Shown: positions 16,541 through 48,992 of the stretch, piece after piece
Layout of the letters: each line of letters begins with the position of its first letter
Position numbering within the stretch: position 1 is the stretch's first letter
Assembly: GCF_001280085.1 (NCBI RefSeq)
Contig: NZ_LGED01000195.1
Span: 58,339 to 122,338 of the forward strand
Origin: Saccharothrix sp. NRRL B-16348
GTDB lineage: Bacteria; Actinomycetota; Actinomycetes; Mycobacteriales; Pseudonocardiaceae
DNA length: 64,000 nucleotides
Direction: 5' to 3'
Translations under genes and position numbers: made by a program
Notes under the pieces: model-generated
What the model was told of the DNA's origin: nothing
The model's database searches: none
Seen by the model: only the letters and a program-made list of their open reading frames with translations

Positions 16541-16619
16541 GCAGGTCCTCCGTCGCGTGGTCGAACCGGCGCCGTGCCACCGCCTGGTATGCAGGAGACC
16601 CGAGGAGCGAGGGGGCGGC

Positions 16620-27323: not shown

Positions 27324-30300
27324 TTGTCGCTGCCGCCCCAAGAGCCTCCGTTGGGACTTCGCGCCGCCTTGGCGTTCGGGCGTCCGCTGCGCGACGGTCT
27401 CGAACTGGTCCGCGGGCAGTCGCACCTCGGCACGATCGTCGTGCTGGGTTGCGGTCCGTGCCACGAGTCGCAACTCGACGGGGGAGACGTCGTCGACCGG
27501 GCGCTCACCGACGAGGCGATCCTCCGTGCCGCCCGGGACGACAACGCGACGGTGCTCGACGCCGGCCTGGGCCGGATCGTCCGGAAGAACACGGAGCTGC
27601 GCACGTCGCTGTCCACGCGCGCGTCGGGTGGCGGGACGAGGCACAAGAACGGTGAGCGGTTCTCCGTCGAGACCGGCCACCCGGTGGCGGTCGTCAGCGA
27701 GGAACGGCAGACCATCACCGTCTTCCACGGTGAGCGGAAGTACCTCCTGCGCACCCGCGACGAACTGCGTGACGAGATCCGCGACCTGATGGCAGGGCTC
27801 CGCTCCGCCCTGAGCCGCCGTGAGCGGCAGGCGAGCGGTGAAGACCGGCTGCGGGCCGTGCTCGCCGAAGTGGGCGAACACCTCGTGGAACTCGGCGCCC
27901 CGGGCCGCGCGCTGCACACCGAGTGCGCGTTGATCGCGGCGGAGCTGGGCGTCGAGTGGGAGGTCCCCGCCGACCTCGGCACCTCCACCTTCACCGCACC
28001 CGACGGCCCCACGGCGGCGGAACGCAGGCTGCGCGCGTTGTCCGACCGGCTGGCGGTGGAGCTGGACCTGTCGAGCAGCCGCGAGTTCGAGGGCGACCAC
28101 CGCCTCAGCACCGGCCTGTACGTGCGCCGGACCCAGCAGGACGCCGTCCGCGACCTGCTCGCCCCGGCGGGCTACGACAAGCCGGTGCTGGTGAGCGGCG
28201 TGCCGGGTGAAGGCAAGAGCAGCCTGCTGTGGGGCCTGCACGAGGACTTGCGGGACGACCCGGTGCTCGTGCCCTACCTGCTGAACTCCCCGTGGCTGAC
28301 CGGGAGCCGCGGTGCGCCCGCGCTGCTCGGCGTGGACGACCTGCGCGCCACCGCCGAGTCCGCGCGTGGTCGCGGCCGCGTCGCGGTCTTCCTCGTCGAC
28401 ACCGTCGACCTGCTGCTGCACGACGAGGCGCACCGCCGGCAGGTGCTCGACCTGTGCGACGCGCTGGCCGAGGCGGGCGGCCAGGTCGTGCTCACCTCGC
28501 GGCCGGAGGAGGCCCAGTCCCTGCCCAAGGCGTCGTTCCGGGGCGTCGTCCTGCGCCCGTACGACGACGCGGAGCTGCCGGTGGCGGTGGCCAAGCACGT
28601 CGCCGCGTTCTGCCCCGACTCCGCCGCGGGCGGTCCGGCGGAGCAGGTCGCCGCCATCGTCGACTCCGCCGCACGGGGGCTGACGGTGCGCGAGGTCGTG
28701 CTGAACCCGCTCAAGCTGCGCCTGCTGTTCGAGCTCTACCAGCCCGACTTCCCGTCGCTGGAGCACGACGTGTCCAGCCTCTACCGCATGTACTGGGAAC
28801 GGCGCGTGCACACCGACCGGCGCGGCGAGACCGGTCTGGACGACGGCGCGGACCTCACGGAGGTCGCCGAGAACACCGCCATCGCGCTGCTCGCCGCCGG
28901 CCGCACCGAACTGGGCGAACCACCGCTGCGCCGGTCCGCCGCCACCGTCGCCGCGGGTCGGCGCCGGGCGGAGCGCGACGCCGCCGCGGTGACGGCCGAG
29001 ATCGCCGAGGGCATCACCGGGCTGGCCCGGCGCGGCGTGCTCGTCCGCTCCGAGCAGGCCGTCCGGTTCTTCCACCAGACGATGTTCGAGTACGCCGCGG
29101 CGGTCGGCCTGCTCGACCGCGACGGCGACGCGGCGCTGACCTTCCTGGTCGACCACCTCAAGGCACGCCCGGACGACCTGTTCGTCGGCGCGGTCGTCGA
29201 GCAGGCGCTGATCCTGGCCTTGGACGACCCCGTCGTGTCGCCCGCCGCCGTGTCCCTGCTGGAGGGCATCGCCACCGACGGCACGCCCGCGTTGCAGCGG
29301 ATCGCGTTGGGCGTCCTCGCGCACAAGCCGTCGCTCCAGGCCACCACCGAGCGGCTGGTCGACGCGGTGGACGAGGCGGCGTTGCGCCGTTACGCGCAAA
29401 CCGTGCCGACGGTGCTGAAAGCCGACGTCGGCCACCAGGTGGACATGCTGGTCAAGGTGTGGCAGCGCAGTGTCGGCGCGCGCGAGTCGGTGCTGCTGTC
29501 CCTGGAGCGGCTAGGCGCGCGCGACCCCGCCGTCGTCGTCTCGGCACTGCGGGAACTGGACTGCGTGACCGTGGCCCTGAGCTGGAAGGACTCGCCCGCG
29601 CGGATGGTGCAGCTGGTCGCCCGCGTGCTCGTGGTCGCCGCCAAAGCCGACCCGGAGTGGGCGCGCGCCCAACTGCTCGCCCTGCTCGACGCCATGCTCG
29701 CCCGCAACACCCACCGCACCCTCCCGCTGCACCTCCTCGACGTGCTGGCCGACCACTGGGCGCGACTCGGCTCACCCGACACGGCCACCGCGGTCGAAGC
29801 CCGGGTCCTGCGGGCGCAGGAGGACCACGACGCCGCAGCCGGCGAAGTCCGCCGCGCGCTCGGGCGGATCATCGCGCTGGACTGGCGGGACCGGCTGACC
29901 GCGGGTGAGGCCGCCGACCAGTGGTGGCCCGCGTTCGTCGAGGACCTGTGCGAACGGCTCGACGCCGACTACTACAGCGTGCTCGCCAACGCCCAGTTGC
30001 ACGCGATCTCGCACCTGGTCAAGTGGGACGTGCTGGACGCCGCGCGCGCGGTCTGGACCGTGGAGCGACTCGCCGCCGTGCCGGGGTACGGCGCTTTCGC
30101 GCTCGCCCACTCGTTGTTCGCGCCGCTGCTCGCCGCCGACGGCACGGGTTCCGCCGCCGCCGCCGTGGAACCGTTCCTGCTGGGGCTGCTCGACGGCCTG
30201 CCCGCGCCCGGTCACCAGCCTGCCGCCGGACCGCAGCGCCTGGCCCACGTGGTGCGCCAGGCGTTGCACGATGCGGATCTGCCCGCCGCTCGCCTGGCCG

Positions 30301-33300
30301 CGCTGCTGGCCGACGTCCCGGCCGCGCGCGAGGCGCCGAACTGGCTGTCCGACGAGCACCTCGCCGTCCTGCTCGTGCCCGCCGCGGTGGGCGGCCACCC
30401 GGTCGCGGGCGAGGCGTTCGAGCTGGTCGCCGCCGACCCGGGCGTGCTGTCCGAGACGGGGCTCAAGACCGCCGGGTACGACGCCGTGCGCCACCTGGGC
30501 GCCGACCCGCGGCTGCTGCCGCTGCTGATCGAGCAGAGCGTGCGCCGCACGTCCGCGGCGCCGTTCTCCGAGGTGGTCGACGACCTCACCGGCGGCCTGC
30601 TCGACGAGCTGCGCGCCCACTCCGCCCGGCTCACGCACCTCGTCGACCTGCTCTTCGGCGGAGGCGGTGCGGCGCAACGGGACGCGGCGAGCCTCTGGCG
30701 CCGCCTGCACCAGGTGGGCGCGGTGCCCGAGCCGGAGCACGAGGAGCTGGTCGCGCGGTTCCGGGCGACCCCGGCGCAGGCCGCGCGCGGCAACATCCTG
30801 GACCTCGCCGTCGACGTCGCCCTGCGGAACCCGGCACGGCTGGACGCGACGGACCGCCTGCTGCGCGACCTGTTCCGGGTCGACGCCGGGGCCGTGGTGT
30901 CGGCGCGTGACGGCGAACCCGGTCACGTGGCCGTGATCGCCAGGGCCGCCTGGCTGAGGCTGACGTGCGTCGGCCGCCCCACCGCGGAGGTCGACGCGCG
31001 GGAGGTCGTGGCCACGGCCGCGGCGGCGCCGACGACCACCGACAACCTGGCCGTGCTCGGGTACCTGATCAGCAGGCTCGCGGGGCAGGGAGCGCCGCGT
31101 GCCGCCGCCGACCTCCTGCTGGGCGTCACCGGGGTCGTGCGGGACGTGCCGTTGCAGCCGAAGCAGGAGAACCGCCTGGCCAACAAGCTGCGCACCCCGA
31201 TCCGGATGATCATGCGTGCGGCCAGGCCCGGCCTGCAACGCGAGCTGCTCGCGCAGGCGCCCACGATGCCGCAGACCCACGCGCGACTGCTCGTGACGGC
31301 GGCGGCGCAGGAGAACTTCGCCGCGTTGCGGGAGAACCTGGCGGCGCTGCTGGACGAGGACCTGCCCTACGGTGTGGCACAGCAGATCCACGACGACATC
31401 AGGATCCGTTCCCGTGCCGCGGCCAGCGGCTCCCTGCCCGGCCTGCTCGAACCGCTCCCCAGGACGGTGCCCGCTCCGGAAGAGGCTCCGGTTCCCGGAG
31501 AGGCGACCGTGCCTGCTCCGGGCGAGGCCGTCGCCGCGCCGACGGTGCAGGCGGGCGGTCCGAGCAGCCACAACGACTTCTCCGGCGTCGCGCACACCGT
31601 CGTGCAGGCCGGCTCGATCGGCTCGGTCGTCATCGCCGCCGAAGCGCCCGCGCCGCCACCCGTGCCGCGGCAGCTGCCCATGGCGCCCCGCGGGTTCGTG
31701 AACCAGGTCCACGCGCTCGCCCGGCTGTCGCAGGTGCTCACGCCCGACGCGCCACCGGTCCACTGCGTGGTGGGGCTCCCCGGCGTCGGCAAGACGGCCG
31801 TGGTCGTCCACTGGGCGCACCTCAACGAGCACCACTTCCCCGACGGCGTCCTCTTCGCCGACCTGCGGGGCTTCCACCCGGCCGGGTCACCTGCGGAACC
31901 GGGGGAGGTGCTCGACGCGTTCCTCACCGCCCTGGGGTTGTCCGGCCGCGCGTCGGGGAACACCTTGGACAGCAGGGCGGCGGTGTACCGCACCGCGCTG
32001 CGCGACCGCCGGATGCTCGTGGTGCTCGACGACGCCGTGACCGCGGACCAGGTGCGGCCGTTGCTGCCCGGTGGTCGCAGCGTCGTCCTGGTCACCAGCC
32101 GTTCGGCGTTGCGAGGCCTGGTGGTCAGGGAGGGAGCCGCGGTGATCGACCTCGACCCGCTGCCGCCCGACGAGGCCGTCTCGCTGCTCGTCCGGGACGG
32201 CGGCGCCGAGCCCGCGGACACCGCCACCGCCGACCTGGCCCGGTGGTGCGGGTACCTGCCGCTGGCGTTGCGGATCGCCGCCGAACGCCTGGCGAGCGGC
32301 TACTACGCGACCACCGCCGAGTTCGTCGCCGAGCTGACGCGCGAGGCGGACGTGCTCGACCTGTTCGACACCGACGACGACGCCTCGGCCCTCCGGTCCG
32401 TCTTCTCGGTCTCCTACCGCCACCTGGCGCCCGAACCGGCCCGGGTGTTCCGCTTCCTCGGGTTGTTCGCGGGCACGACCATCGGCGTGGAGGCCGCCGG
32501 GGTGCTGTCGGGCCTGGGCACGGGGAAGGCGCGCCGGGCGCTCGACGCGCTCCGCCAGGCCAACCTGCTCGAACTCGTGCGACCGGGCCACTACCGCATG
32601 CACGACCTGCTGCGGCACTTCGCGGCCGAACGGGTGCGACAGGAGGAGGACGACGCCGTCCGGCGCGACGCGGTGCGTGCCGTGCTGACGTGGTACCTGG
32701 TGAGCGCCGCGAACGCCGACGCCGTGCTGGACGCGGCGAACCCCGAGGTGCCGGCGGTCCCCGGCACGGGCGCGGAGTTCGCCGACGTCCCGCAGGCGAC
32801 CGCGTGGTTCGCCGCCGAACAGGTCAACCTCGTCGCGTGCGTGCGGCAGGCGGCCGGGCTCGGCGAGCACGACCTGGCGTGGCGGCTGGCCGCGACCCTG
32901 TTCGAGTTCTTCTACCGCACCAAGGCGTGGGAGGACTGGATCGACACCCACGTCACCGGCCTGGCGTCCGCGACGGCCGACGGCGACCGGCACGGCGTCG
33001 CGAACCTGCTCGGCAGGCTCGCCGTCGCGCACCGGGAGCGCCGCGACCACGAGTCGGCCGAGGAGCGCTTCCGCGAGGCCATGGCGATCTGGACCGACCT
33101 GGACGACGACCGCGGGCTGGCGTGGGTCGCGAGCCGGTACGCGCAGGCGTGCCGGGAACGCGGCCGGCACGACGAGGCCGTCGACCTGTGCCTGCGCGCC
33201 CTCGCCGCGGCCGAGCGGACGGGCGACCGCCAGGAAGCGGGCGTCATCCACAACAACCTGAGCGGCATCCACCGGGAAGCCGGCCGCCTCGACGACGCGT

Positions 33301-33659
33301 TGCGCCACTCGGATTACGCGATCGCCGAGTTCGAGGCCGTCGAGTACCGCCGGGGCCTGGCGTGGGCCCGGACCAACGCGGCGAACGTGCACCGGGACGC
33401 GCGCCGGTTCGACACCGCGCTGGACCTGTACCGCCTGGCACACGACGAACGCGCCCGACTCGGCGACCACTACGGCCGCGCGCTCACGTTGAGCGACATG
33501 GGGTACGCCCAGTGCCTGTCCGGCGACGTCGACACGGGCCTGACCACGCTCCACTCCGCCCTGACCCTGTTCCCACCCGACGACCCCGCCCTGGACCGCG
33601 TCCGCGCCCGCATCGCCGAGTTCGACCCGGACGGCGAGCGGACGGCCCTTCCCGGCTGA
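27324..33659 (+). CDS. Giant DAC (diadenylate cyclase)-STAND NTPase fusion with two NTPase modules and TPRs
   Basis: A 2111-residue protein. Residues 15-150 are a DisA_N/DAC domain: GRPLRDGLELV, GTIVVLG, DNATVLD (Asp73 in the DGA position, Gly replaced by Asn), GTRHKNGERF (Arg106-His107) and TGHPVAVVSE. A first NTPase has Walker A GVPGEGKS (292-299), Walker B VAVFLVDTVDLL (353-364) and the NACHT-like FFHQTMFEYAAAVG. A long alpha-helical, HEAT-like stretch covers about 700-1370. A short NDFSGVAHTVVQAGSIG motif (1417-1433) precedes an NB-ARC module (GLPGVGKT, 1484-1491) and C-terminal TPRs. TTG 27324 has a GGAGG SD 5 nt upstream. It probably senses invasion and makes, or is gated by, a cyclic dinucleotide; this is inference. 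Confidence 0.8.
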   Translation: MSLPPQEPPLGLRAALAFGRPLRDGLELVRGQSHLGTIVVLGCGPCHESQLDGGDVVDRALTDEAILRAARDDNATVLDAGLGRIVRKNTELRTSLSTRASGGGTRHKNGERFSVETGHPVAVVSEERQTITVFHGERKYLLRTRDELRDEIRDLMAGLRSALSRRERQASGEDRLRAVLAEVGEHLVELGAPGRALHTECALIAAELGVEWEVPADLGTSTFTAPDGPTAAERRLRALSDRLAVELDLSSSREFEGDHRLSTGLYVRRTQQDAVRDLLAPAGYDKPVLVSGVPGEGKSSLLWGLHEDLRDDPVLVPYLLNSPWLTGSRGAPALLGVDDLRATAESARGRGRVAVFLVDTVDLLLHDEAHRRQVLDLCDALAEAGGQVVLTSRPEEAQSLPKASFRGVVLRPYDDAELPVAVAKHVAAFCPDSAAGGPAEQVAAIVDSAARGLTVREVVLNPLKLRLLFELYQPDFPSLEHDVSSLYRMYWERRVHTDRRGETGLDDGADLTEVAENTAIALLAAGRTELGEPPLRRSAATVAAGRRRAERDAAAVTAEIAEGITGLARRGVLVRSEQAVRFFHQTMFEYAAAVGLLDRDGDAALTFLVDHLKARPDDLFVGAVVEQALILALDDPVVSPAAVSLLEGIATDGTPALQRIALGVLAHKPSLQATTERLVDAVDEAALRRYAQTVPTVLKADVGHQVDMLVKVWQRSVGARESVLLSLERLGARDPAVVVSALRELDCVTVALSWKDSPARMVQLVARVLVVAAKADPEWARAQLLALLDAMLARNTHRTLPLHLLDVLADHWARLGSPDTATAVEARVLRAQEDHDAAAGEVRRALGRIIALDWRDRLTAGEAADQWWPAFVEDLCERLDADYYSVLANAQLHAISHLVKWDVLDAARAVWTVERLAAVPGYGAFALAHSLFAPLLAADGTGSAAAAVEPFLLGLLDGLPAPGHQPAAGPQRLAHVVRQALHDADLPAARLAALLADVPAAREAPNWLSDEHLAVLLVPAAVGGHPVAGEAFELVAADPGVLSETGLKTAGYDAVRHLGADPRLLPLLIEQSVRRTSAAPFSEVVDDLTGGLLDELRAHSARLTHLVDLLFGGGGAAQRDAASLWRRLHQVGAVPEPEHEELVARFRATPAQAARGNILDLAVDVALRNPARLDATDRLLRDLFRVDAGAVVSARDGEPGHVAVIARAAWLRLTCVGRPTAEVDAREVVATAAAAPTTTDNLAVLGYLISRLAGQGAPRAAADLLLGVTGVVRDVPLQPKQENRLANKLRTPIRMIMRAARPGLQRELLAQAPTMPQTHARLLVTAAAQENFAALRENLAALLDEDLPYGVAQQIHDDIRIRSRAAASGSLPGLLEPLPRTVPAPEEAPVPGEATVPAPGEAVAAPTVQAGGPSSHNDFSGVAHTVVQAGSIGSVVIAAEAPAPPPVPRQLPMAPRGFVNQVHALARLSQVLTPDAPPVHCVVGLPGVGKTAVVVHWAHLNEHHFPDGVLFADLRGFHPAGSPAEPGEVLDAFLTALGLSGRASGNTLDSRAAVYRTALRDRRMLVVLDDAVTADQVRPLLPGGRSVVLVTSRSALRGLVVREGAAVIDLDPLPPDEAVSLLVRDGGAEPADTATADLARWCGYLPLALRIAAERLASGYYATTAEFVAELTREADVLDLFDTDDDASALRSVFSVSYRHLAPEPARVFRFLGLFAGTTIGVEAAGVLSGLGTGKARRALDALRQANLLELVRPGHYRMHDLLRHFAAERVRQEEDDAVRRDAVRAVLTWYLVSAANADAVLDAANPEVPAVPGTGAEFADVPQATAWFAAEQVNLVACVRQAAGLGEHDLAWRLAATLFEFFYRTKAWEDWIDTHVTGLASATADGDRHGVANLLGRLAVAHRERRDHESAEERFREAMAIWTDLDDDRGLAWVASRYAQACRERGRHDEAVDLCLRALAAAERTGDRQEAGVIHNNLSGIHREAGRLDDALRHSDYAIAEFEAVEYRRGLAWARTNAANVHRDARRFDTALDLYRLAHDERARLGDHYGRALTLSDMGYAQCLSGDVDTGLTTLHSALTLFPPDDPALDRVRARIAEFDPDGERTALPG

Positions 33660-33796
33660 GCGCCCCCGTTCCCAACCACGGGACAACCCGCTCGGCCCTT
33701 GCCGGTGCCCGGGCCCGGTGCGAGCCTGTGTTCCCGGCTCGTTCGGCGGCAGGGTCGCCTGCCGGGTGCGGAGAACGTGGCACGCGCGGAGGGGCG

Positions 33797-36676
33797 ATGG
33801 CCGAGTACCGGGACCTGCCCGACAGGTTCCGCGACGCGTTGACCTTCGGCCGTCCGCTGCGCGACGGTCTCGAACTCGTCCGCGAGAACGGCCTCGGCAC
33901 GATGGTCGTGCTGGGTTGCGGTCCGTGCCACCAGTCGCAGCTCGACAGGGGAGACGTCGTCGACCAGCCCCTCACCGGTGAAGCGATCCTCCGTGCCGCC
34001 CGGGACGACAACGCGACGGTGCTCGACGCCGACCTGAATCGGATCGTCCGGAAGCACACGGAGCTGCGCACTTCGCCGACCACTCAGGCGACGGGCGGTG
34101 GGACCAGGCACAACAGCGCGGAGAGGTTCTCCAGCGAGACCGGTCACCCGGTGGCGGTCGTCAGCGAGGAAAAGAAGAAGATCACCGTCTTCCACAACGG
34201 GCGGCAGCACCTCCTCCAGGACAGGTCGGAACTGGAGCGGAAGGCAGGCCTCCTCATGGCCTTCGTCGCGTTCGGAGACGGCCAGGGCAGGACGCAGGCG
34301 TCGAAGGCCGAGTTGGAGGACTGTCTCGCCGAACTCGGCCGCGCGGAGGAACCGCCGCGGGCGCCGTCCACCGACACGGGGCTGGTCGACCGGCACGACC
34401 ACCTCCGCGACCTGGGGAAGCGGCTCACCGAAGGCCCGTGGGGCGTGACCGTGCTGCAAGGGATTCGCGGCATCGGCAAGACGAAGCTCGTGGAAGCGGT
34501 GCTGGCGGACCTCGAACGGCAACGGGCCGAGGGCGCGTTGCTGCGGATCGGTCGCCACGACGCGCGGCCCGGCGCGGTGTTCGACGTCGCGACCCTCGTC
34601 GACCACCTGGAGGGAGGCCCGGACCCGCACCGGTCGACCGGCAAGTCGTCGCTCGTGCGGCTGGAGGTGGCGTTGCGCCGGCTCGGCGGATCCAGGGTCG
34701 TCCTCGTGGTCGACTCCGCCGAGAACCTCCTCGACGCCGACGGCGAGCTCGCCGACCCCGACCTGGACGAGGCGCTGGAGATGCTCGCGACCGGGTACGA
34801 GCACCGCGTCTCCGTGCTGGTGGTCAGCCGTCGTGAGCCGGTCTCGCCGAACGGCGGCACGTGGCCGAACGCCGAGCCGATCACCCTGGGCAGGCTGCCC
34901 GAGCCCTACTTCTTCACCTACCTCGCCGCGCTCGACCCCGTCGACAGCGGGAAGCTCGGCAGCCTGTCCGTGGCCGACCGCCGCGCGCTCTACGGCCGGT
35001 TGCGGGGCATCCCCAGGCTGGGCGAGCTGGCGCACGCGGTCGCCGTCGTCGAGGACAACCGGTTCGACCTGCCCTCGTTGACGGCCCACCTGCGGCAGCT
35101 GGACGCCAAGGCCGTGCCCGACGAACTCACCCACCTCCTGGTCGAGGGGACGAGTCCGGTACGACGACGGGTCATCGAAGCCCTTGCGGCACTGGACACA
35201 CCGGTTCCCGCGGAGACGGTGGCCGGCATGGTCAAGGGCGCCGGGGCGGACGTGATCAGCGAGGAGTTGGACGCGCTCGTCGCCCGGCGGATCGTCCACC
35301 GCGCGGAGCACGACCGGTACTTCCTGCCCTCCGAGGACGGCCGGTTGATCATGGCGGCACTGCCCCGCAAGCGGGCGCGGCCGCTGTACGTCCTCGCGGC
35401 CGACCACCTGACGCCGCTTCGGAACCCCGAACCCCGCGAGATCGGCGACCTGCGCGTGTACTTCGCGGAGGTGGACGCGCTGCTGCGCGCCGGCGAGTTC
35501 GGCGCGGCCGTCGAGACGATGCACGGGCTGCACGACATCCTCGGCGAGTGGAACTGTCGCCACCTGCTGTTCCACCGGCGCAAGAAGCTGGTCGGGAAGT
35601 TCGGCGGCGACCTCCACTGGGAGAAGCTGAACCTCAACGCGCTCGTCGAGATCTACCGGTCGCGCGGCAAGTACGAGGAAGCGGGCAAGTGCCTCGGGGA
35701 CGCGCTGAGGATCGCGCACGCCGAACAGGACGCCCTGAGCACGGCGCGGCTGCACACCAACCTCGCCGGGCTGTACTGGGAGATGAACGAGACCGAGCGT
35801 GCCCGCGGCTACTTCGAACTCGCCCGGGCGGAGAACGACCGGCTGCTCGATCCGAAGATCGACATCGCCACCGCCGAGGGCATCGCCGACTGCCACCGCC
35901 GCCAAGGCCGCTACGACCAGGCGATCCGGCACGCCGAGCTGGCGTTGGACGCGGCCGGGCGGAGCGACGCGGACGAGGTCCGGGCGTTCGCCGCGTCCCG
36001 GACCGTCACCATCGCCCTCAAGCTCGCCCGGTGGCTCGCCGAACTCGGGGACAGGGCGGGCGCCGACCGGTTCGTCGAGCTGGCGCGGACCACGTCGACC
36101 GCGGACGGCGCCGTGCCGTTGCGCGCGGCCTACCTCAACGGTTTCGCGGTCGCGCAGCACTACCGCGACGAGCGGGAGCTGGCACTGGCGTCGGCCCTCG
36201 GAGCGGTCGACCTGGCGTTGCGGCAGCGTGATCCGGTGATCCTGCTGGAGGCGCGGACCACGCTGTGCCTGCTCTACCTCCACTCCGGGGAGGTCGAGCG
36301 GGCCCGGACCGAGGTCGAGCTGGCCCGACCGTACCGCCGCAAGCACCGGTCGCTGATCGTGCAGGCGCTCCTCGCGCTGACGGCCCACCGGACCGGGGAC
36401 CGCAGGGCGGCGTCGAAGGCGTTCCGCCGGTTGTTCGGCGAGGCGGAGAAGCGGATCGCGCGCGACGAGCGGGACTTCGCCGCCCGGGACCTGCGCGGGT
36501 TCGCGGTGTGCGGGCTGCACCTCCACAACGGTGACGACCTCGGCGCGGCCGTCGCCGACTTCGCCGATGCCAGGCTGCTCACCCCGCCGACGCCACCACT
36601 GGTCGGTCGGCTGCGGTTCATGGTCGAGCAACTCGACGGGGCCGGCGCGTTGCGGCCGGTGCTCGACGTGTTGTGA
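33797..36676 (+). CDS. DAC (diadenylate cyclase)-STAND NTPase-TPR protein
   Basis: A 959-residue protein whose first 145 residues are a close paralogue of the DAC domain of the preceding gene: GRPLRDGLELV, DNATVLD (Asp71) and GTRHNSAERF (Arg104-His105). Walker A GIRGIGKT (222-229) and Walker B VVLVVD (301-306) define one STAND-type NTPase; VSRREPV is the sensor-like strand, and a winged-helix portion follows. Residues about 590-959 are TPR-like helical pairs. ATG 33797 has a GGAGGGG SD. It is 137 bp downstream of the giant paralogue and could be co-transcribed. The Arg-His-Arg/Lys catalytic motif ends in Asn here, so cyclase activity may differ from the first protein. Confidence 0.82.
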   Translation: MAEYRDLPDRFRDALTFGRPLRDGLELVRENGLGTMVVLGCGPCHQSQLDRGDVVDQPLTGEAILRAARDDNATVLDADLNRIVRKHTELRTSPTTQATGGGTRHNSAERFSSETGHPVAVVSEEKKKITVFHNGRQHLLQDRSELERKAGLLMAFVAFGDGQGRTQASKAELEDCLAELGRAEEPPRAPSTDTGLVDRHDHLRDLGKRLTEGPWGVTVLQGIRGIGKTKLVEAVLADLERQRAEGALLRIGRHDARPGAVFDVATLVDHLEGGPDPHRSTGKSSLVRLEVALRRLGGSRVVLVVDSAENLLDADGELADPDLDEALEMLATGYEHRVSVLVVSRREPVSPNGGTWPNAEPITLGRLPEPYFFTYLAALDPVDSGKLGSLSVADRRALYGRLRGIPRLGELAHAVAVVEDNRFDLPSLTAHLRQLDAKAVPDELTHLLVEGTSPVRRRVIEALAALDTPVPAETVAGMVKGAGADVISEELDALVARRIVHRAEHDRYFLPSEDGRLIMAALPRKRARPLYVLAADHLTPLRNPEPREIGDLRVYFAEVDALLRAGEFGAAVETMHGLHDILGEWNCRHLLFHRRKKLVGKFGGDLHWEKLNLNALVEIYRSRGKYEEAGKCLGDALRIAHAEQDALSTARLHTNLAGLYWEMNETERARGYFELARAENDRLLDPKIDIATAEGIADCHRRQGRYDQAIRHAELALDAAGRSDADEVRAFAASRTVTIALKLARWLAELGDRAGADRFVELARTTSTADGAVPLRAAYLNGFAVAQHYRDERELALASALGAVDLALRQRDPVILLEARTTLCLLYLHSGEVERARTEVELARPYRRKHRSLIVQALLALTAHRTGDRRAASKAFRRLFGEAEKRIARDERDFAARDLRGFAVCGLHLHNGDDLGAAVADFADARLLTPPTPPLVGRLRFMVEQLDGAGALRPVLDVL

Positions 36677-36687
36677 GACCCGTTCGC

Positions 36688-37287
36688 TCACAACCAGTGC
36701 AGCTCTTGTGCCCGCATGACCGCCTGGAGCCTGCCGCTCACGCCCATCTGCCGGTACAGCACCCGTAACAGCCGGAACATCGCCCGCTCGGAGTAGCCGG
36801 CCCGGCTCGCCAACCGTGCCACGGTCGTGCCGCCCGCCAGGTCGCGCAGCCAGGACAACTGGTCGGCCGACAGCGGGCTGTGCGCGTCCGTCTGCGAGCC
36901 GGCGGCGAGAGCGGCGGCGACGGCGGCCGGCATCACGGCCTGGCCACCGATCGTCGCGTCCACCGTCTGCCGGAGCGCGTCCACGCTCACCGAGCGCGGC
37001 AGCACGGACCGTGCGCCGAGCCGCACGGCCCTGGCTCCCGACGCGGCGGGGTCACCGTCCAGGACCGCGATGACGACCTGGGCGCCCAGCGTGCCGCACA
37101 GGCGGCTCAGGACGTCCCAGTCGTCCTCCGACAGCACCGTCAGCAGCACAACCGACGACGTCGAGCGGCGCACCCACGCCACCACGTCCGCCGGCGTCTC
37201 GACCGCGTAGCCCGCGCCGGCCAGGACTGCGGAGACGCCCTGCTGGAACACGGGCAGCGGATCCACGACCGCGACGCGGACGACCAC
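36688..37287 (-). CDS. Response-regulator-like protein with pseudo-receiver and LuxR-type HTH
   Basis: A 199-residue protein laid out as a NarL/FixJ regulator: receiver-like 1-120 (VRVAVVDPLPVFQQGVSAVL) and a helix-turn-helix at about 137-185 (SPLSADQLSWLRDLAGG, YSERAMFRLLRVLYRQMGV). The phospho-acceptor strand reads VVLLTVLSED, with Thr instead of Asp, and the usual acidic pair after the first strand is reduced to a single Asp. It is therefore probably not controlled by phosphorylation. GTG start at 37287. It converges on the second DAC-STAND gene 12 bp away and is divergent from a small ORF that precedes the CBASS-like operon, so it could regulate either. Confidence 0.82.
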   Translation of the reverse strand: MVVRVAVVDPLPVFQQGVSAVLAGAGYAVETPADVVAWVRRSTSSVVLLTVLSEDDWDVLSRLCGTLGAQVVIAVLDGDPAASGARAVRLGARSVLPRSVSVDALRQTVDATIGGQAVMPAAVAAALAAGSQTDAHSPLSADQLSWLRDLAGGTTVARLASRAGYSERAMFRLLRVLYRQMGVSGRLQAVMRAQELHWL

Positions 37288-37495: not shown

Positions 37496-37759
37496 ATGCT
37501 CATGACTTACGACGACGACACAGGCAACCGTGTGCACCTCGACATCCGGCCCGAGGACCGCCCGGCCGACCGCGTGGCGCCACCGCCCCCACCGTCCAAG
37601 ACGGTCCGAACCCTGATCCTGGACCACGCCGACCGCCACCGCGAGTGGGGCCCGGACCGCATCCACGCCCACTTCCGCAACACCCACCGCCGGCACGACA
37701 TCCCGCTCACACTCGTCCGGTTCGTGCTGACGCAGGAAAAGGCCCGAGAGCGCCGCTAG
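37496..37759 (+). CDS. Small protein of unknown function
   Basis: An 87-residue ORF with strong third-position GC bias and a GAGGAGG SD just upstream of ATG 37496. The N-terminal 35 residues are acidic and Pro-rich; the C-terminal part (TLILDHADRHREWGPDRIHA, then HDIPLTLVRFVLTQE) looks like two helices of a helix-turn-helix, similar to that of integrase-core-type transposase N-termini. It could be a small DNA-binding protein or a remnant. It lies 153 bp upstream of the CD-NTase gene in the same direction. Confidence 0.55.
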   Translation: MLMTYDDDTGNRVHLDIRPEDRPADRVAPPPPPSKTVRTLILDHADRHREWGPDRIHAHFRNTHRRHDIPLTLVRFVLTQEKARERR

Positions 37760-37912: not shown

Positions 37913-38881
37913 GTGGACATCGAGGCAGCGTTCGACGAGTACCAGCGCGCAGTGGACGCCGACGCGGAGCTGGTCAAGGTGGCGCGGGAACGCGCCGCGA
38001 CGTTCAAGGCGGCGTTCGAGTCCGAACCGGACGTGCGGAAGGCGTGGCTGTCCGGCTCCTTGCGTCGCTCGACGCAGCTGGACCCGGTGCACGACGTGGA
38101 CATGGTGATCGAATACGACCTCGTCGATCACCCTGACTGGGGACAACCCGGCCCTTCCGCGGGCGAGGCCGTCGAGCACGCGCGCACGAGGTGCAAGGCA
38201 CTGCTCGGCGATCCCGACGGCACGTTCGCCGAGCTGGTGCGGCGTGCGGATGGGCGCAACCGGGCCGCGAAGTGCTTCGTGGACGACCCCGACGACCCGG
38301 AAGCCTTCACCGTCGACGTCATGCCCGTGATCCGGCAGTCCGCCGACGCGCTGCACATCCCGGACGTCGAGGCGAGCTGCTGGATCACCGCGAACCCCGA
38401 GTACCTCATCGAGTGCGCCCAACGCCGTCACGAGAACTGGGGCCACTACCGACACATGGTCCGCGTGCTCAAGGCGTGGCGCCTGTCCGTCACCGGGACC
38501 GTGAAGATCAGGTCCCTGGTGATGGAAGTGCTGGCCTGGGAGTACCTGCCCGACGGGTCGACCAGGGCCGATGCGCTGGCCACCTTCTTCGAAGCGGCGG
38601 CCACCCAGGTCAACCTGCCGATCGAGGACCCGGCAGGCCTCTGCGGTCCCATCCAACCCGACCTCGACGTCGGCGCCCTGCGGACCGCGCTCGAGGAAGC
38701 CGCTGATATCGCGGCGTCCGCTCAGGTGGCCGCACGACGGGGGGACACCGACGAGGCCCTCGTGCTGTGGGGCAGGGTCCTGGGGCCGGAATTCCCCGCC
38801 CCGGCCTTGAAAAGCCGGACGACGTCCACCGCATCGGCCGCGCTCAGCACACTGTCGATGATCAACCGACCGCAGGGGTGA
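37913..38881 (+). CDS. CBASS-type CD-NTase (cGAS/DncV-like nucleotidyltransferase)
   Basis: A 322-residue nucleotidyltransferase. The polymerase-beta signature is WLSGSLRRST (Gly48-Ser49) then DVDMVIEYD (Asp61, Asp63), with the third acidic residue Asp135 in FTVDVMPVI. This is the active-site layout of CD-NTases, which make cyclic di- or trinucleotides on phage infection. The protein ends in NRPQG; a C-terminal Gly is what the E1/E2-like enzyme of type II CBASS conjugates to targets. The GTG start at 37913 has an AGGGGG SD. The gene is followed at 7 nt by an E2-like gene and then an E1-like gene, which supports the call. The product nucleotide cannot be predicted. Confidence 0.88.
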   Translation: MDIEAAFDEYQRAVDADAELVKVARERAATFKAAFESEPDVRKAWLSGSLRRSTQLDPVHDVDMVIEYDLVDHPDWGQPGPSAGEAVEHARTRCKALLGDPDGTFAELVRRADGRNRAAKCFVDDPDDPEAFTVDVMPVIRQSADALHIPDVEASCWITANPEYLIECAQRRHENWGHYRHMVRVLKAWRLSVTGTVKIRSLVMEVLAWEYLPDGSTRADALATFFEAAATQVNLPIEDPAGLCGPIQPDLDVGALRTALEEAADIAASAQVAARRGDTDEALVLWGRVLGPEFPAPALKSRTTSTASAALSTLSMINRPQG

Positions 38882-38888
38882 ATGCGCG

Positions 38889-39407
38889 GTGACCCCGTGG
38901 TGGGAGTCCGACCCGGACCGGCTGGATCGGGATCGTCGGGAACTGGCCGAGAAGTTCCCCGAGCTGGTGCTCGACCTGGAGTCCGAGCCGGCGGGTCGGT
39001 GGCACGGCCGTCTCCCCGACTGGCCCTTCGACCGACCTCCACCCGAACGACTGGACGCGCTGACGGAGGGGAGCGGTCTGCTGCTCGACCTCCGCTACCG
39101 GCAGAGCTACCCGATGGTGCCGCCTCGCGTCTTCCCGCTGGCTCCGAGCCCCGAGGTGAACCTCCGGATGCGGCACGACTGGCACTTGCAGGGTGACGGC
39201 AGCCTGTGCCTGCTCCGATCCGAGGCACTGTGGACCGGGCGTGAGTCCATTGTGGATCTTCTGCTCAAGGCCGCCGGCTGGCGCGTCGAGTACGCGTTGA
39301 TGACCGCCCGTGCGATCAAGTCCATGAGCGAGAACGGGATCGTCGACGACCCGGTCCACGACCACTTGGTGGAGGCCGTCGCATGTCTACTTCCGTCATC
39401 CTCCTGA
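38889..39407 (+). CDS. E2-like ubiquitin-conjugating fold protein of a CBASS operon
   Basis: A 172-residue protein with an E2-like core: LLLDLRYRQSYPMVPPRVFPL (beta-meander and proline loop), HDWHLQGDGSLCLL with the putative catalytic Cys107, and ALWTGRESIVDLLLKAAGW as the following helix. In type II CBASS an E2-E1 fusion (Cap2) transfers the CD-NTase C-terminus to other molecules; here E2 and E1 are separate genes. GTG 38889 lies 7 nt after the CD-NTase stop, and the end overlaps the E1-like start by 25 nt, so all three are translated together. Confidence 0.8.
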   Translation: MTPWWESDPDRLDRDRRELAEKFPELVLDLESEPAGRWHGRLPDWPFDRPPPERLDALTEGSGLLLDLRYRQSYPMVPPRVFPLAPSPEVNLRMRHDWHLQGDGSLCLLRSEALWTGRESIVDLLLKAAGWRVEYALMTARAIKSMSENGIVDDPVHDHLVEAVACLLPSSS

Positions 39408-40657
39408 CCAGGGAGGGCGCTGCGGCCATCCGCGCCGGCACGGGCTGGGGCTTCGTCACGACCCGGACGTCCGACGCGGACGGGGTGGGTGTGGTGATCG
39501 CGGTGTCGGACGGGCGCGGATTCCCTCGACCGGTGGGGATCGTGGATCGGCTGCACTACCTGAACGTCGGTGACGCCAAGCAGAACTGCACCTGGCACCG
39601 CGTAGCGGCCGACGTCAACCACTGGTGGCTGCACTGCTCGGCGAAACGAGGTGTGATCGCCTTCGACGAGTTCGCCGGGATGATCCCGGGCTTTCGCCAA
39701 CCAGGTGGCGTCACGTACCTCGCGATCACCCATGCGCCGGACCTCGACGAGCGGCACCGTCAGTGGGCGACACCCGAGTTCGCCGCCTGGCGCGTGACTC
39801 CCGCCGGCGTGCTGCCCCTGGACCTCGAAGTCCAGCGGGAGAAGGCGGGCACAGCCCTGCTGGAGTCGCACTGGCCGGTGGGGATCGTCGGTGCGGCACG
39901 GTTCCTGGTGGTCGGTCTGGGCAGCATCGGCGGCGCGGCCGCGCTCGCGCTCGCCACCGCGGGAGCAGGCACCCTCGACCTCGTCGACCCGGACCGGTTG
40001 CGTTGGCACAACCTGCCACGCCACGTCTGCGGCGCCCGGCACGTCGGCAGGATGAAGGCCGAGGCGATCCGGGCCGACCTCGAACTGCTGCGCCCGGACA
40101 CGAAGGTCAACGCGTACGGCCACGACGTGGTGGAGGACGCCGACCACATTCGCGACCTGCTGCCCGATGTGGACGTGATCGTGTGCGCCGCGGACGGCGT
40201 GGCTCCTCGTCGGGTGGTCAGCCACCTGGCGCGACGCGCCGGGAAGCCCGCGATCCTGTCGTGCGTCCTCGCCGACGGCGCCTACGGTGACGTGGTCCGC
40301 CTGTGGCCGTGGCCCCATCACGGCTGCCTGACGTGCCGGACGGAGGCGTTGGCGGATGCGGGCGGTCTGCTTCCCGACCTCCACGCGGACGCCGGGTACG
40401 GCTCCGCCGGACACCCGATGACGGCGGTGGGCTCGGACCTCCACCTGGTCGGCCAGTTCGCGGCGAAGTTCGCGGTCGCGACCCACCTGCAGGGCAAAGG
40501 GCAGCACGACCAGCGATTCGCCGGGGAACACGCGGTTCTGGCGTTGAGGCCTGAGCCTGGCTGGGCCGCGCCCTACGACCTGATCCGGGCAGGCGAGGTG
40601 CGCTGGCACTCCGCGACACCGCCCCGAGCAGGCTGTTCGACCTGCGGACCGGCCTGA
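39383..40657 (+). CDS. ThiF/E1-like adenylating enzyme of a CBASS operon
   Basis: A 424-residue protein. Residues 170-400 are an E1/ThiF domain: FLVVGLGSIGG (nucleotide-binding Gly-rich loop at 178-183), DLVDPDRLRWHNLPRH, VGRMKAEAI, DVIVCAADG and LSCVLADGAYGDVV with a candidate catalytic Cys. Two CxxC pairs (CLTC and, at the extreme C-terminus, CSTC) probably bind zinc. The N-terminal 165 residues are unassigned; they do not show the HxHx(7)SxxD motif of JAB peptidases, so a Cap3 function is not evident. ATG 39383. It would activate the CD-NTase C-terminal Gly for transfer to the E2 (inference from the family). Confidence 0.82.
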   Translation: MSTSVILLTREGAAAIRAGTGWGFVTTRTSDADGVGVVIAVSDGRGFPRPVGIVDRLHYLNVGDAKQNCTWHRVAADVNHWWLHCSAKRGVIAFDEFAGMIPGFRQPGGVTYLAITHAPDLDERHRQWATPEFAAWRVTPAGVLPLDLEVQREKAGTALLESHWPVGIVGAARFLVVGLGSIGGAAALALATAGAGTLDLVDPDRLRWHNLPRHVCGARHVGRMKAEAIRADLELLRPDTKVNAYGHDVVEDADHIRDLLPDVDVIVCAADGVAPRRVVSHLARRAGKPAILSCVLADGAYGDVVRLWPWPHHGCLTCRTEALADAGGLLPDLHADAGYGSAGHPMTAVGSDLHLVGQFAAKFAVATHLQGKGQHDQRFAGEHAVLALRPEPGWAAPYDLIRAGEVRWHSATPPRAGCSTCGPA

Positions 40658-40691: not shown

Positions 40692-40904
40692 GTGACAACT
40701 ACGGCTATGCTGCGTGACATCTCGTTCTCGTGGACGTAGGCGGCTCCAGCCCCACCCACGGAATTCTCTTCAGATCCCCGGGACAGTGCCAGTTCACTGA
40801 CCGCGGCCGGACGTGGCTTGTCGCCTTTCCCGTCGTGTCACCGGGTTCCCCACCTCGCGGCGTGGCCGCGGTATCCACCATTCCCGATATCAGGGAGAAA
40901 ACCC
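40682..40904 (+). promoter_or_regulatory. rho-paralogue promoter and about 190-nt leader
   Basis: TTGCGC (40682-40687) and TATGCT (40706-40711) with 18-bp spacing form a good vegetative promoter. The remaining stretch to the TTG start at 40905 is a C-rich untranslated leader with no ORF I can support. rho genes are often autoregulated by early termination in such leaders, and that is a reasonable guess here. Confidence 0.5.
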
Positions 40905-42032
40905 TTGAACCACAACGATTCCACCGACACCCGGCTCGTCTCCGGCGTCCTCGACGTCGTGGACCGCCGGTCCGTGCTGCGCACCGACGGCTACCTGCCC
41001 GGACCGGACGACGTCACCGTCGCGGCGCACCTGGTGGCCGAACACGGTCTCCGGCGCGGTGACGAGGTGCACGGTCGCGTGGCGCCACCGGCGCGCGAGG
41101 GCAAGGCGCCGTCGCTGGTCACGGTCGAGGCCGTCAACGGCGCGCACCCACGCCACTCGCGGTCCCGGCCGGTGTTCACCGACCTCGTGCCCACCCACCC
41201 GCACGAACGGCTGCGGTTGGAGACGGAGGCGCACGAGTTGACCACGCGGGTGGTCGACCTGCTCATGCCCATCGGCAAGGGGCAGCGCGCGTTGATCGTG
41301 GCGCCGCCCAAGGCGGGCAAGACCTCGGTCCTGCGGGCGATCGCGCACGGCATCGCCAAGAACAACCCGGAGTGCCACCTGATGCTCGTCCTGGTCGGCG
41401 AACGGCCGGAGGAGGTCACCGACCTCTCCCGGGCGGTGCCGGCCGAGGTCGTCGCGGCGACCTTCGACCACCCGCCCCGGGACCACACCGCGCTCGCCGA
41501 ACTCGCCGTCGAACGCGCGAAGCGCCTGGTCGAGCTGGGGCGGGACGTGGTGGTGCTGCTGGACTCCGCGACCCGCCTCGGCCGCGCCTACAACCTCGCC
41601 GCGCCCTCGTCCGGCCGGGTCCTGTCCGGCGGCGTGGACGCGAGCGCCCTCACCGCGCCCAAGCGGTTCCTGGGCGCGGCGCGCAACGTCGAGGGCGGCG
41701 GTTCGCTGACGATCATCGCCACCGCGCTGGTCGACACCGGCTCCGCGGGCGACGCGCTGCTCTTCGAGGAGTACAAGGGAACCGGCAACGCCGAACTGCG
41801 GCTGGACCGCAAAGCCGCCGCACGGCGCGTGTTCCCGGCCGTGGACGTCAACCAGTCCGGCACCCGCCGCGACGACCTCCTGCTCACGCCCCGCGACGCC
41901 GCGGCCACCCGGCTGCTGCGCCGTGCCCTGGCCGGCAAGGAGGACGCGGTCGACGTGCTCCTCGACGGCCTGCGCAAGACCGGCGACAACGCCGAGTTCC
42001 TGATCCGCCTCACGCACACCACGCCACGCTGA
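40905..42032 (+). CDS. rho: Short transcription termination factor Rho paralogue
   Basis: A 375-residue Rho: OB/cold-shock-like domain ([17 protein letters not shown]) and the full hexameric helicase core with Walker A APPKAGKT (133-140), GERPEEV (165-171), Walker [17 protein letters not shown] and [13 protein letters not shown]. Canonical actinobacterial Rho is 600-700 aa with a long N-terminal extension that is absent here. The usual Asp of DERPEEV is Gly165, and the R-loop TGSKMDE is TGSAGDA, losing the RNA-contacting Lys. It is therefore probably a specialised second Rho, not the housekeeping copy. TTG 40905 has an AGGGAGA SD. Its position right after a CBASS-like operon may be coincidental. 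Confidence 0.85.
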
Positions 42033-45609: not shown

Positions 45610-48600
45610 TCAGGTCCCGGTGACGGCTCGCCAGCTCGTCACGAACGCCCGGGTGATCGGGTGATCCTCGCCCAGCGCCCGTCGGCAGTCGGTCAGGGCG
45701 GCGTCGAACAGGGTGGTGGCCAGGTCGTGGTGGCCGGCGGAGTGGTGGGCGTGCGCGACGCGGACCCGGGAGATGAGGGTGTCCGGGTGGCCGTCGCCGA
45801 GGATCCGGCTGCGGGCGGCGAGGACGGCTTCGTACAGGGCGCGGGCGGTGGGCAGGTCGCCGAGCGCGTGGCGTGCCCCGGCCAGCGTGTCGAGCGAGAC
45901 GAGGGTGTCGGGGTGGTCGGGGCCGAGCACGCGTTCCCGGTCCGCCGCGACGGCCGCGATCTCGGGCGCCGCCCGGCGGAAATCGCCGGCGGACAGGTGG
46001 GCGTTGGCGAGGTTGTGCCGCGAGCTCAACGTGTCGGGGTGGTCGGGGCCCAGCAGCCGGTCGCGTTCGGCGAGGTTGACCTCGTGCAGCGCGATGGCCC
46101 GGGAACGGTCTCCCGCTGTCTCGTGGACGTTGGCGAGGTTGTTGCGGAGCGTGAGGGTGCTCGGGTGGTCCGGTCCGAGCGCGGTCAGGGCGGTCCGGTA
46201 GGTCTGCTCGTGCAGCGGGACGGCGCGGGCCAGGTCGCCCGCCGCCTCGTAGGCGCCGGCGAGGTTGCTCGCGTGGGAGAGGGTGTCGATGTGGTCGGGG
46301 CCGAGCTGCCGCGTGCAGGTGGCGAAGGTGGCTTCGTACAACGGGATGGCCGACGTGAGGTCGCCGACGTCCATGTGCACGCCGGCGAGTTCGCCGCGGA
46401 CGGAGACCGTGCGGGGGTGTTCGGGCCCGACCGCGTCCTCCATGCCGGTCAGGGTCTCGCGGTACAGCCGTGCGGCGTGCGCCAGGTGTCCCGCCGACCT
46501 GTGGGCGCGGGCGAGGTTCCCGCGTGCCGCGAGGGTGTCCGGGTGACCGGGGCCGAACGCGCGCTCGAACCCCGCGACCACCTCCTCGTGCACACTGATC
46601 GCCCGCGCCACGTCGCCCGCGATCAGGTACGTGCTCGCCACCCGGGCGCGGGAGATGAGCGTGGCGGGGTGGTCGGGACCGAACATCCGTTCCCGGTCGG
46701 CGAGGGTCTTGCGGTGCAGGGGGATCGCCAGGGCGAGTCTCCCCGCCGACAGGTAGGCGTCGGCGAGGTCGCCGCGGGAGACGAGGGTGTCGGGGTGGTC
46801 CGGCCCCAGCACCCGTTCGCGGTCGGCGAGAGTGGCTTCGTACAACGGGATGGCGGACGCGAGGTCGCCGGTGGACAGGAGCTTGTCGGCCAGGTTCGCC
46901 CGGGACGTGAGCGTGTGCGGGTGGTCGTCGCCCAGCACGCGTTCGCGGTCGGCGAGCGTCGCCCGGTGCAGCGCGAGCGCTTTGCCCACCTCGCCCGCCG
47001 CGTGGTAGGCGTTGGCGAGGTTGTTGCGGGAGTTCAACGTGTGGGGGTGGTCCGGCCCGAGCACGCGCTCCCGGTCGGCGAGAGTCGTTTCGTACAGGGG
47101 GATCGCGGACTCGAGATCGCCCGCCGACTCGTAGGTGCCGGCCAGGTTGCCGCGGGCCGACAGCGTCTGGGGGTCGTCCGGGCCCAGGACGCGCTCGCGG
47201 TCGGCGAGGGTGCGGCGTTCCAGCTCGATCGCCGTGGCCAGGTCGCCCGCGACCCGGCAGGCGTTGGCGAGGTTGCCGCGGACGGTGAGCGTGACGACGT
47301 CGTCGTCGCCCAGCTCCTCCTCGCACTGGCGCAGCACCGCCCCGAACAGCGCGACACCGCGGCTGACCTCCCCCTTGTCCACGTAGGCGCCGGCCAGGTT
47401 GTTCAGGCAGCCGAGCGTCTCGACGTGCCGCGGACCGTGCAGTCGTCCGGCCGCGCGGGCCGCGCGCGTGCACAGGGCGATGGCGTCCCTGACCGCGCCC
47501 TGGTTCCGCAGGAACTGGCCCAACGCGCCGAACAGGCGGCAGGTGGCGGCGGTGTCGTCGTCGTGCGCGGTGTGGTCGAACAACGCCATCGCGTGCGGCA
47601 GCACGGCTTCGTAGACCGGCCAGGACGCCGGGAGGCGGTGGTCCAGGCCGTCGACGGCGCGCGCGATGACCGAGGTCGCGGTCCGGCGTGCCTCCGCGAC
47701 GTCGGCGGGCAGGCGGAACGGGTCGTCGGCGTCCGGCGTGCGGGCGACGGCCTGGACGAGGCGGTGGACGCCGACGGTCGTGCCGGTGAGCGTCACCATG
47801 CTGTAGGCGGAGAGCTTGCCGAGGGCCTCGCGCAGGTCGGGTTCGTCGGCCGACCCGCTGAGGAACGCGCGCGGCACGGCGTCGGGGGCGTACCAGGCCA
47901 GCAGGCGCAGCACCCGCACCGCGAGCGGGGTGTCGGCGAGCCGTTCGAGGGTGACGTGCCAGACCCTCGCCATCGTGCGCTGCGCGTCACCTCCCTCGGC
48001 GGTCGCGGTGAACATCCGCGCCGGGAACCTCGCCAGCGAGTCCAGGTACTCCGCGACGGTGATGCGGGTCTGGGCGATGTAGGCGGCGGCCTGCTCGATC
48101 GCGAGGGGCAACCACCCCAGCTCCGTGCAGAGCACGTCGGCGCCCGCGAGGTCCGCTTCCGGCCACTCGGCGCGCACCAGCCGCGACAGCAGCTCCACCG
48201 CCTGGTCCGCCGGCAGCACGTCCACCGCGACGGTCGCCACCGCGCCCCAGCCGAGGCGCTTGCGCGAGGTGATCACGATCGTGCCCGTGCGCACGCGTTC
48301 CAGCAGCCACTTCGCGTCCTCGGGGCCGGTCAGGTTGTCCAGGACCAGCAGCCAGTCGTCGTGCGTGGCCAACCACCGCACACCCAGCCCGACGCGTTCC
48401 TCCAACGGCACGCGCGCCGCGTCGGGCGCCACCGCGACCGCCAGCTCCGCCAACCCGGCGTTCACCGCGGCGGGCGAGTCGGCGACCACCCACCAGACGA
48501 ACGCGAACCGGTCCGCGCGCACCTGCGCGAACCGCGCCGCCAACGTCGACTTGCCCACCCCGCCGAGCCCGTGCACCGCCACCACGGCGGCCCGACCCGA

Positions 48601-48819: not shown

Positions 48820-48992
48820 ACCCCCATCATCGCGGCCGGCGCCCGGCACGACCAGCACCCGCTACGCAGCGGCACGGTGCACTCGACCGGACCACATGGC
48901 GTGATGGATCGGGTGAACCGCGCCGTCGACCCCTCCACCGGGGCACGGGACGGCACTAGCGTCCCGAGCGTCGAGCACCAGGAGGTCGTCGG

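Follow-up and report, generated by a model that had tools for sequence, protein, structure and literature searches.

DisA makes the messenger cyclic diadenosine monophosphate (c-di-AMP), and defence proteins of the Avs type are laid out as an N-terminal domain, a module of the signal transduction ATPases with numerous domains (STAND) and C-terminal repeats. Here we describe two adjacent genes of Saccharothrix sp. NRRL B-16348 (Pseudonocardiaceae), P1 and P2, whose products join a DisA-like diadenylate cyclase (DAC) domain to STAND modules and which lie beside a type II cyclic-oligonucleotide-based antiphage signalling system (CBASS) with its own cGAS/DncV-like nucleotidyltransferase (CD-NTase). 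They belong to a stretch of 64,000 nucleotides, hereafter the window (contig NZ_LGED01000195.1, positions 58,339 to 122,338 of the forward strand), and window coordinates count from its first letter. In type II CBASS the tail of the cyclase is conjugated, as in the B. cereus case (PMC11153139); the CBASS sensors covered in a review include SAVED and STING domains, NucC, CapV, Cap15 and the like (PMC10419184); and DAC enzymes act head to head (PMC8573169).

DisA proper continues after its DAC into a DisA-linker and an HhH domain. P1 and P2 differ from it in giving no match to the DisA-linker, in their changed RHR and DGA motifs, in the attached STAND and TPR modules and in their separate branches of the DAC tree. 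With Avs and other STAND (NLR-like) defence proteins they share an N-terminal domain, a P-loop STAND module, C-terminal repeats and a setting in defence islands, whereas their N-terminal domain is a DAC and stands beside a second-messenger system. The window CD-NTase is 49–52% identical to those of type II CBASS with Cap4 (L046, L047, L048 and L050), with the same E2-E1 order and PQG tail; unlike in those loci, no JAB or Cap4 relative was found in the window by searches with one query each, and DAC genes occupy the effector place or lie close to it. No link between DAC domains and CBASS or STAND effectors was found among the papers listed by literature searches that mostly lacked subscription papers and preprints: the places located in PMC9813507 and PMC10243994 contained none, and 'DisA', 'DAC' and 'diadenylate' were not found in PMC7159879.

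We favour the reading that P1 and P2 are effectors of the neighbouring type II CBASS, their DAC domains binding the CD-NTase product and switching on the STAND modules, and regard the chances for and against it as evenly balanced. The wider proposal, that dead DisA domains read the CBASS nucleotide and fire STAND proteins as a new class of receptor plus effector, occurring in split and fused forms, is more tentative and falls somewhat short of an even chance. The strongest support is the operon position of DAC genes in two genera, together with the fact that JAB and Cap4 are missing alongside. The DAC is more likely a receiver of signal because the synthesis motifs have lost letters, a DAC gene sits at the effector place in two relatives and the operon already has a cyclase. 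The sequence-only reading had proposed a signal-producing immune receptor: DAC–STAND fusions are real, rare and, in the group A loci read, situated by defence genes, whereas the production of a signal is not supported, given the letters lost from motifs needed for c-di-AMP, the DAC gene at the effector place of two relatives and the CBASS cyclase, part of an operon that this reading had missed.

DAC genes and the effector place of type II CBASS

The principal features, all on the + strand, are as follows.

27324..33659, +, P1, DAC-STAND protein of 2111 aa with a DAC, an AAA_16-like STAND module, a long repeat region, NB-ARC and TPR
27417..27734, +, DAC domain of P1, residues 32-137 (PF02457, 38.6 bits; motifs DNA and RHK)
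28197..28220, +, first P-loop of P1 (GVPGEGKS)
31722..32417, +, NB-ARC of P1, residues 1467-1698 (PF00931, 32.2 bits, cut-off 23.5)
33797..36676, +, P2, DAC-STAND protein of 959 aa with a DAC, an AAA/nSTAND6-like module and TPR
33863..34204, +, DAC domain of P2, residues 23-136 (PF02457, 49.2 bits; motifs DNA and RHN)
37913..38881, +, CBASS CD-NTase (PADLOC Cyclase, E 9.6e-129; PDB 6p8u, E 2.3e-17)
38889..39407, +, CBASS E2 (PADLOC E2, E 1.7e-70)
39383..40657, +, CBASS E1 (ThiF; PADLOC E1-E2, E 3.4e-157)

The operon at 37913-40657 has the CD-NTase, E1 and E2 that define a type II CBASS. Its CD-NTase retains the GS and DxD motifs as well as the third Asp. Like all twelve CD-NTases of its clade it terminates in PQG, which fits a type II system with a conjugated cyclase tail. 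Among 390 genomes of the family, 12 encode a CD-NTase of this clade at 270 bits or more and three more match weakly. In two of them, from two other genera (L040 and L042), the CD-NTase, E2 and E1 genes are followed by a DAC-TPR gene and then by an NB-ARC-TPR gene, the interval between E1 and the DAC-TPR gene being about 60 bp in L040 and 28 bp in L042 by the starts chosen. CBASS effectors are operon-encoded, and on that measure the DAC-TPR genes of L040 and L042 lie inside the operon, whereas P1 and P2 lie outside it. P1 seems to unite in one chain the DAC and NB-ARC-TPR parts that are separate genes in L040 and L042.

The same loci stand apart in what they lack. Each of the nine other loci of the clade has a JAB relative after its E1 gene, and four of these nine also have Cap4 endonuclease-SAVED relatives (L046, L047, L048, L050); the window, L040 and L042 have neither. 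No JAB or Cap4 relative was found in the 64-kb window with one query copy of each, a search that remote ones could escape, and no known CBASS effector family was found among the neighbours tested beside the window CBASS. An effector was likewise recognized in none of L049, L051, L052, L053 and the first CBASS of L054. This last is a JAB locus, yet a DAC-STAND gene (L041) lies 4.7 kb past its JAB; 92 bp after the DAC-STAND gene comes a same-strand gene of 315 aa, and then an E2-E1-JAB fusion and a CD-NTase. That gene, at 16497-17444 (-) of L054, between the DAC-STAND gene and the E2-E1-JAB/CD-NTase unit, carries Cys-x2-Cys pairs. The CD-NTase downstream of L041 is of another PADLOC class, so the CBASS cyclases encoded near DAC-STAND genes fall into two classes.

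Domains, motifs and distribution of the DAC fusions

The two frames and their N-terminal DAC domains, as called by the sequence-only reading, were recovered: P1 starts with TTG at 27324 and P2 with ATG at 33797, each has GGAGG 5' of its start, the codon bias of P1 is of coding type, and the genes are adjacent on the same strand with a gap of 137 bp. Both DAC domains exceed the curated Pfam cut-off of 27 bits for PF02457 and match DisA 7y0d by PDB sequence search (E 3e-17 for P1, 5e-19 for P2); they are 63% identical to each other over 182 residues. The Pfam families DACNV and kin gave no match to P1 or P2 and were not found by name in the papers searched. Chance similarity of the DAC was rejected, profile, PDB, fold and tree being concordant, as was a housekeeping DisA with extra domains, given the missing DisA-linker match and the separate branches. 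Plasmid or phage origin was not kept either: the sole plasmid match was a gene annotated disA, and there were no phage matches.

Each of the three NTPase modules has an intact P-loop (P1 residues 292 and 1484, P2 residue 222), and by sequence both proteins combine a STAND-type P-loop NTPase with a helical or repeat region. NB-ARC, one of the two affinities suggested earlier, is present in P1; the other, NACHT, reached only E 0.02 in P2, which is no confident match. The sole match of the first P1 module is AAA_16, just under its cut-off (31.1 against 32.6 bits); AAA_22 is above its cut-off in P1 and below it in P2 (24.3 of 27 bits), and nSTAND6 in P2 is below as well (23.3 of 27.7 bits). PADLOC has no family for P1 and only a TPR model for P2. 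The predicted model of P2, of low confidence, has the STAND-TPR protein 6mfv as its best fold match; because this model is poor across the DAC (predicted local distance difference test mostly <60), the DAC fold of P2 rests on sequence, a better model being that of the DAC-TPR protein of L042. A further list of fold matches contained mostly TPR chains and DisA, and the absence of other folds from it is uninformative.

The altered motifs, DNA in both proteins with RHK in P1 and RHN in P2, were thought from the outset to matter, and comparison across the fusions bears this out. Fifty-seven DAC rows were aligned: 27 fusion rows, comprising 15 of group A (DACs on the same branch as those of the window, in most cases joined to STAND modules) and 12 of group B (DAC-TPR proteins of about 550-630 aa), and 30 DisA-type rows, namely 29 best phylum matches and that of G647, taken as DisA by match and chosen as nearest to P2, hence no random sample. 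The third Arg of RHR is present in 30/30 DisA-type rows and 0/27 fusion rows, and the Gly of DGA in 30/30 as against 6/27 (6/15 in group A, 0/12 in group B), all twelve group B rows having Leu in DGA. S-x-E occurs in all 27 fusion rows, 24 of which read S-E-E, as does the CdaS chain 2fb5; the Glu is absent from every DisA row. Active diadenylate cyclases of the DisA/CdaA kind have intact DGA and RHR; P1 and P2 have neither. Replacement of RHR by AAA abolishes ATP binding and activity (PMC3328451), and in CdaS the change of either motif to AAA abolishes c-di-AMP synthesis (PMC4568413). The DAC of P1 and P2 is likely no longer an active cyclase, judging by these motifs, and a pocket of the same kind with lost catalysis is what an enzyme-derived receptor would be expected to show. 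Databases label at least three fusion proteins diadenylate cyclase (P0002, P0012, P0013), and their motifs argue against that label.

In the tree, computed after removal of one identical row (L036), fusion DACs branch apart from DisA (group A 100/100, group B 95/96). Both window DACs form one branch with the DAC of strain NRRL S-836 (100/99); a copying of the DAC accompanied by a change of its partners is therefore probable. No other DAC was found in the Saccharothrix genome, nor any match to the DisA-linker, STAND modules following the DAC instead; no c-di-AMP riboswitch was found in it or in 11 genus-mates with at most 98 candidates scored per genome, a search in which eight of eight other-family genomes proved to have one.

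A PF02457 search gave a match in 43 of the 390 family genomes and none in 347; most members of the family thus seem to lack DAC-made c-di-AMP. Ten of the 43 have fusion-type DACs, called by score and then by neighbourhood reading (G000, G406, G452, G461, G463, G518, G529, G596, G617, G639); of the others, 32 were assigned to DisA on their scores of 85-97 bits, with the neighbourhood of one, G647, also being read, and a 143-aa fragment in G477 was excluded. An NB-ARC-TPR gene follows the group B gene in six of six loci (L036, L037, L038, L040, L042, L044), and L040 and L042 additionally have a group A gene, which is separated from the CD-NTase by 0.7 and 3.2 kb. The assembly interrupts the NB-ARC-TPR frame in L042 and the DAC-NB-ARC-TPR frame in L039. 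Neighbourhood genes were called with an in-house frame picker that may overlook some; around L036, L037, L038 and L044 most of them are without annotation.

The expected co-occurrence with defence genes was found in all six group A loci read, four of them lying by CBASS, one by Wadjet and one by Mokosh, a count that leaves aside the surroundings of P0003, P0004, P0005, P0008, P0009 and P0010. The Wadjet genes are JetA/JetB (L039) and the Mokosh genes MkoA/MkoB (L035/L043). Near the latter a group A DAC protein of 600 aa is encoded at L034 9842-11644 (= L043 14545-16347), and its C-terminus resembles, by eye only, a response-regulator receiver. Outside the family, 384 genomes of the class were searched with two DAC profiles, at most 9 candidates being scored per genome (E limits 1e-34 for A1 and 1e-38 for A4): A1 gave two further hits (frames of 367 and 491 aa) and A4 nineteen (357 to 780 aa). 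Besides the window's two, these hits are read as DisA, by score and frame length rather than by domains. One case outside the family is P0003, named Nocardiopsis lambiniae.

Proposed mechanism and competing explanations

If P1 and P2 are CBASS effectors, phage infection would activate the CD-NTase, and E1 and E2 would act on the cyclase tail, presumably joining it to a target. The CD-NTase product would bind between two DAC domains arranged head-to-head, by analogy with the pairing of DisA on c-di-AMP. Ligand-bound DAC pairs would then bring STAND modules together, and the assembled STANDs would arrest or kill the infected cell, P2 being a second effector with another STAND.

Several observations weigh against this proposal. 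Its weakest points are that the window DAC genes stand beside the CBASS operon, not in it, the CBASS core lying 1.2 kb downstream of P2 with an opposite-strand gene between, and that in six of the ten genomes with fusion-type DACs no CD-NTase of the window's clade was found. In L036, L037, L038 and L044 none of the CD-NTase, E2 and E1 of the window had a relative within the 20 kb fetched; the six genomes may use other cyclases or other signals, or differ altogether. The closest solved CD-NTases may yield a trinucleotide, larger than the DisA pocket holds. The first CBASS of G518 keeps its JAB, the 315-aa gene of its second CBASS could be the effector, and the one-copy JAB and Cap4 searches missed the distant JAB in the fusion protein of L054. 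Profile searches matched no nuclease, TIR, phospholipase or membrane domain in P1 or P2. The DAC may also retain activity, because the Asp of DGA persists in 26/27 fusion rows and the Arg-His of RHR in 27/27, and because DacA with G73A stays active (PMC3328451); none of the published changes found was confined to the third Arg of RHR.

These same retained residues, the activity of G73A DacA and the S-x-E of every fusion row are what speaks for a DAC that still makes signal. On this view an invader would be sensed through the TPRs, the STAND would then assemble, and the DACs, brought together, would produce a cyclic dinucleotide that acts on another effector; the order of N-terminal enzyme, STAND and C-terminal repeats agrees with the Avs layout. 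We consider this unlikely, given the loss of the third Arg throughout, the Leu in DGA of group B, the replacement of Asp by His in a single group A row, an operon already provided with a cyclase, and a genome in which no other DAC or c-di-AMP riboswitch was found.

It is similarly doubtful that P1 and P2 form an independent defence system, adjacent to CBASS only through the clustering of defence genes. Their separation as a unit 1.2 kb away would agree with this, as would the two group A loci by Wadjet or Mokosh with no CBASS seen and a module of P2-type, LuxR-like and small genes that recurs in the window, L040 and L039. Mere adjacency sits poorly with a DAC-TPR gene directly after E1 in two genera, with the absence of the clade's JAB and Cap4 from the CBASS of the window, L040 and L042, and with a distance within 5 kb in all four genomes that have both a fusion-type DAC and CBASS. 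Least probable by far is a brake, in which the DAC fusions bind nucleotides such as ATP or c-di-AMP and restrain CBASS or other genes as AfsR-like regulators: the NB-ARC-TPR part of P1 does resemble AfsR (NF053617, partial, 294 of 1430 bits) and DAC-TPR/NB-ARC-TPR pairs occur with no CBASS seen nearby, but profile search found no DNA-binding domain in P1 or P2, and a DAC gene holds the place after E1 in L040 and L042.

Neighbouring genes, RHIM-like motif and implications

Three further features lie within P1 or between P2 and the CBASS operon.

31569..31622, +, motif N-x-x-S-G-x-A-x-x-V-V-Q-A-G on the N-terminal side of the P1 NB-ARC, similar to a RHIM/BASS3 amyloid core (a likeness only)
36688..37287, -, gene resembling LuxR/response regulators by weak and partial matches (86% identity in L040, 61% in L039)
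37496..37759, +, small gene coding for 87 aa, conserved in L040 (69%) and L039 (36%)

The two genes downstream of P2 form with a P2-type gene the module that recurs in the window, L040 and L039. On the 3' side of E1 follow a Rho paralogue, a transporter, a LysR regulator and a glycosidase, the short-form Rho paralogue (NF041509) lying directly after E1 at 40818-42032. Further NB-ARC/TPR and BTAD-AAA regulator-like genes occupy 45610-48858 and 51137-54301. Elsewhere in the genome there is a second CD-NTase (G000:C221:18376-18843; SMODS, 70 bits). The Pfam SMODS search of the genome missed the window's own CD-NTase, so silence of SMODS elsewhere is no proof that a CD-NTase is absent.

With bacterial NLRs carrying BASS3 (RHIM-like), P1 shares the short SG-x-A-x-x-VVQAG before its NB-ARC; the motif was compared only by eye with the printed RHIM core (PMC7885112), and no Bell partner was identified. 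The longer form N-x-x-S-G-x-A-x-x-V-V-Q-A-G-x-I stands before NB-ARC/AAA modules in the window, L036, L037, L038, L041, L042, L043, L044 and L052. The motif is not special to the P1/P2 locus, because the genome holds 10 matches at E up to 0.01; that it passes the signal on in P1 is a candidate role.

If the effector reading is true, a DisA-like receptor would be a new way to sense a CBASS nucleotide, and would show a synthase turning into a sensor through loss of catalysis. It would also connect bacterial second-messenger immunity with NLR-like switches, and would counsel caution against equating each DAC domain with c-di-AMP synthesis.
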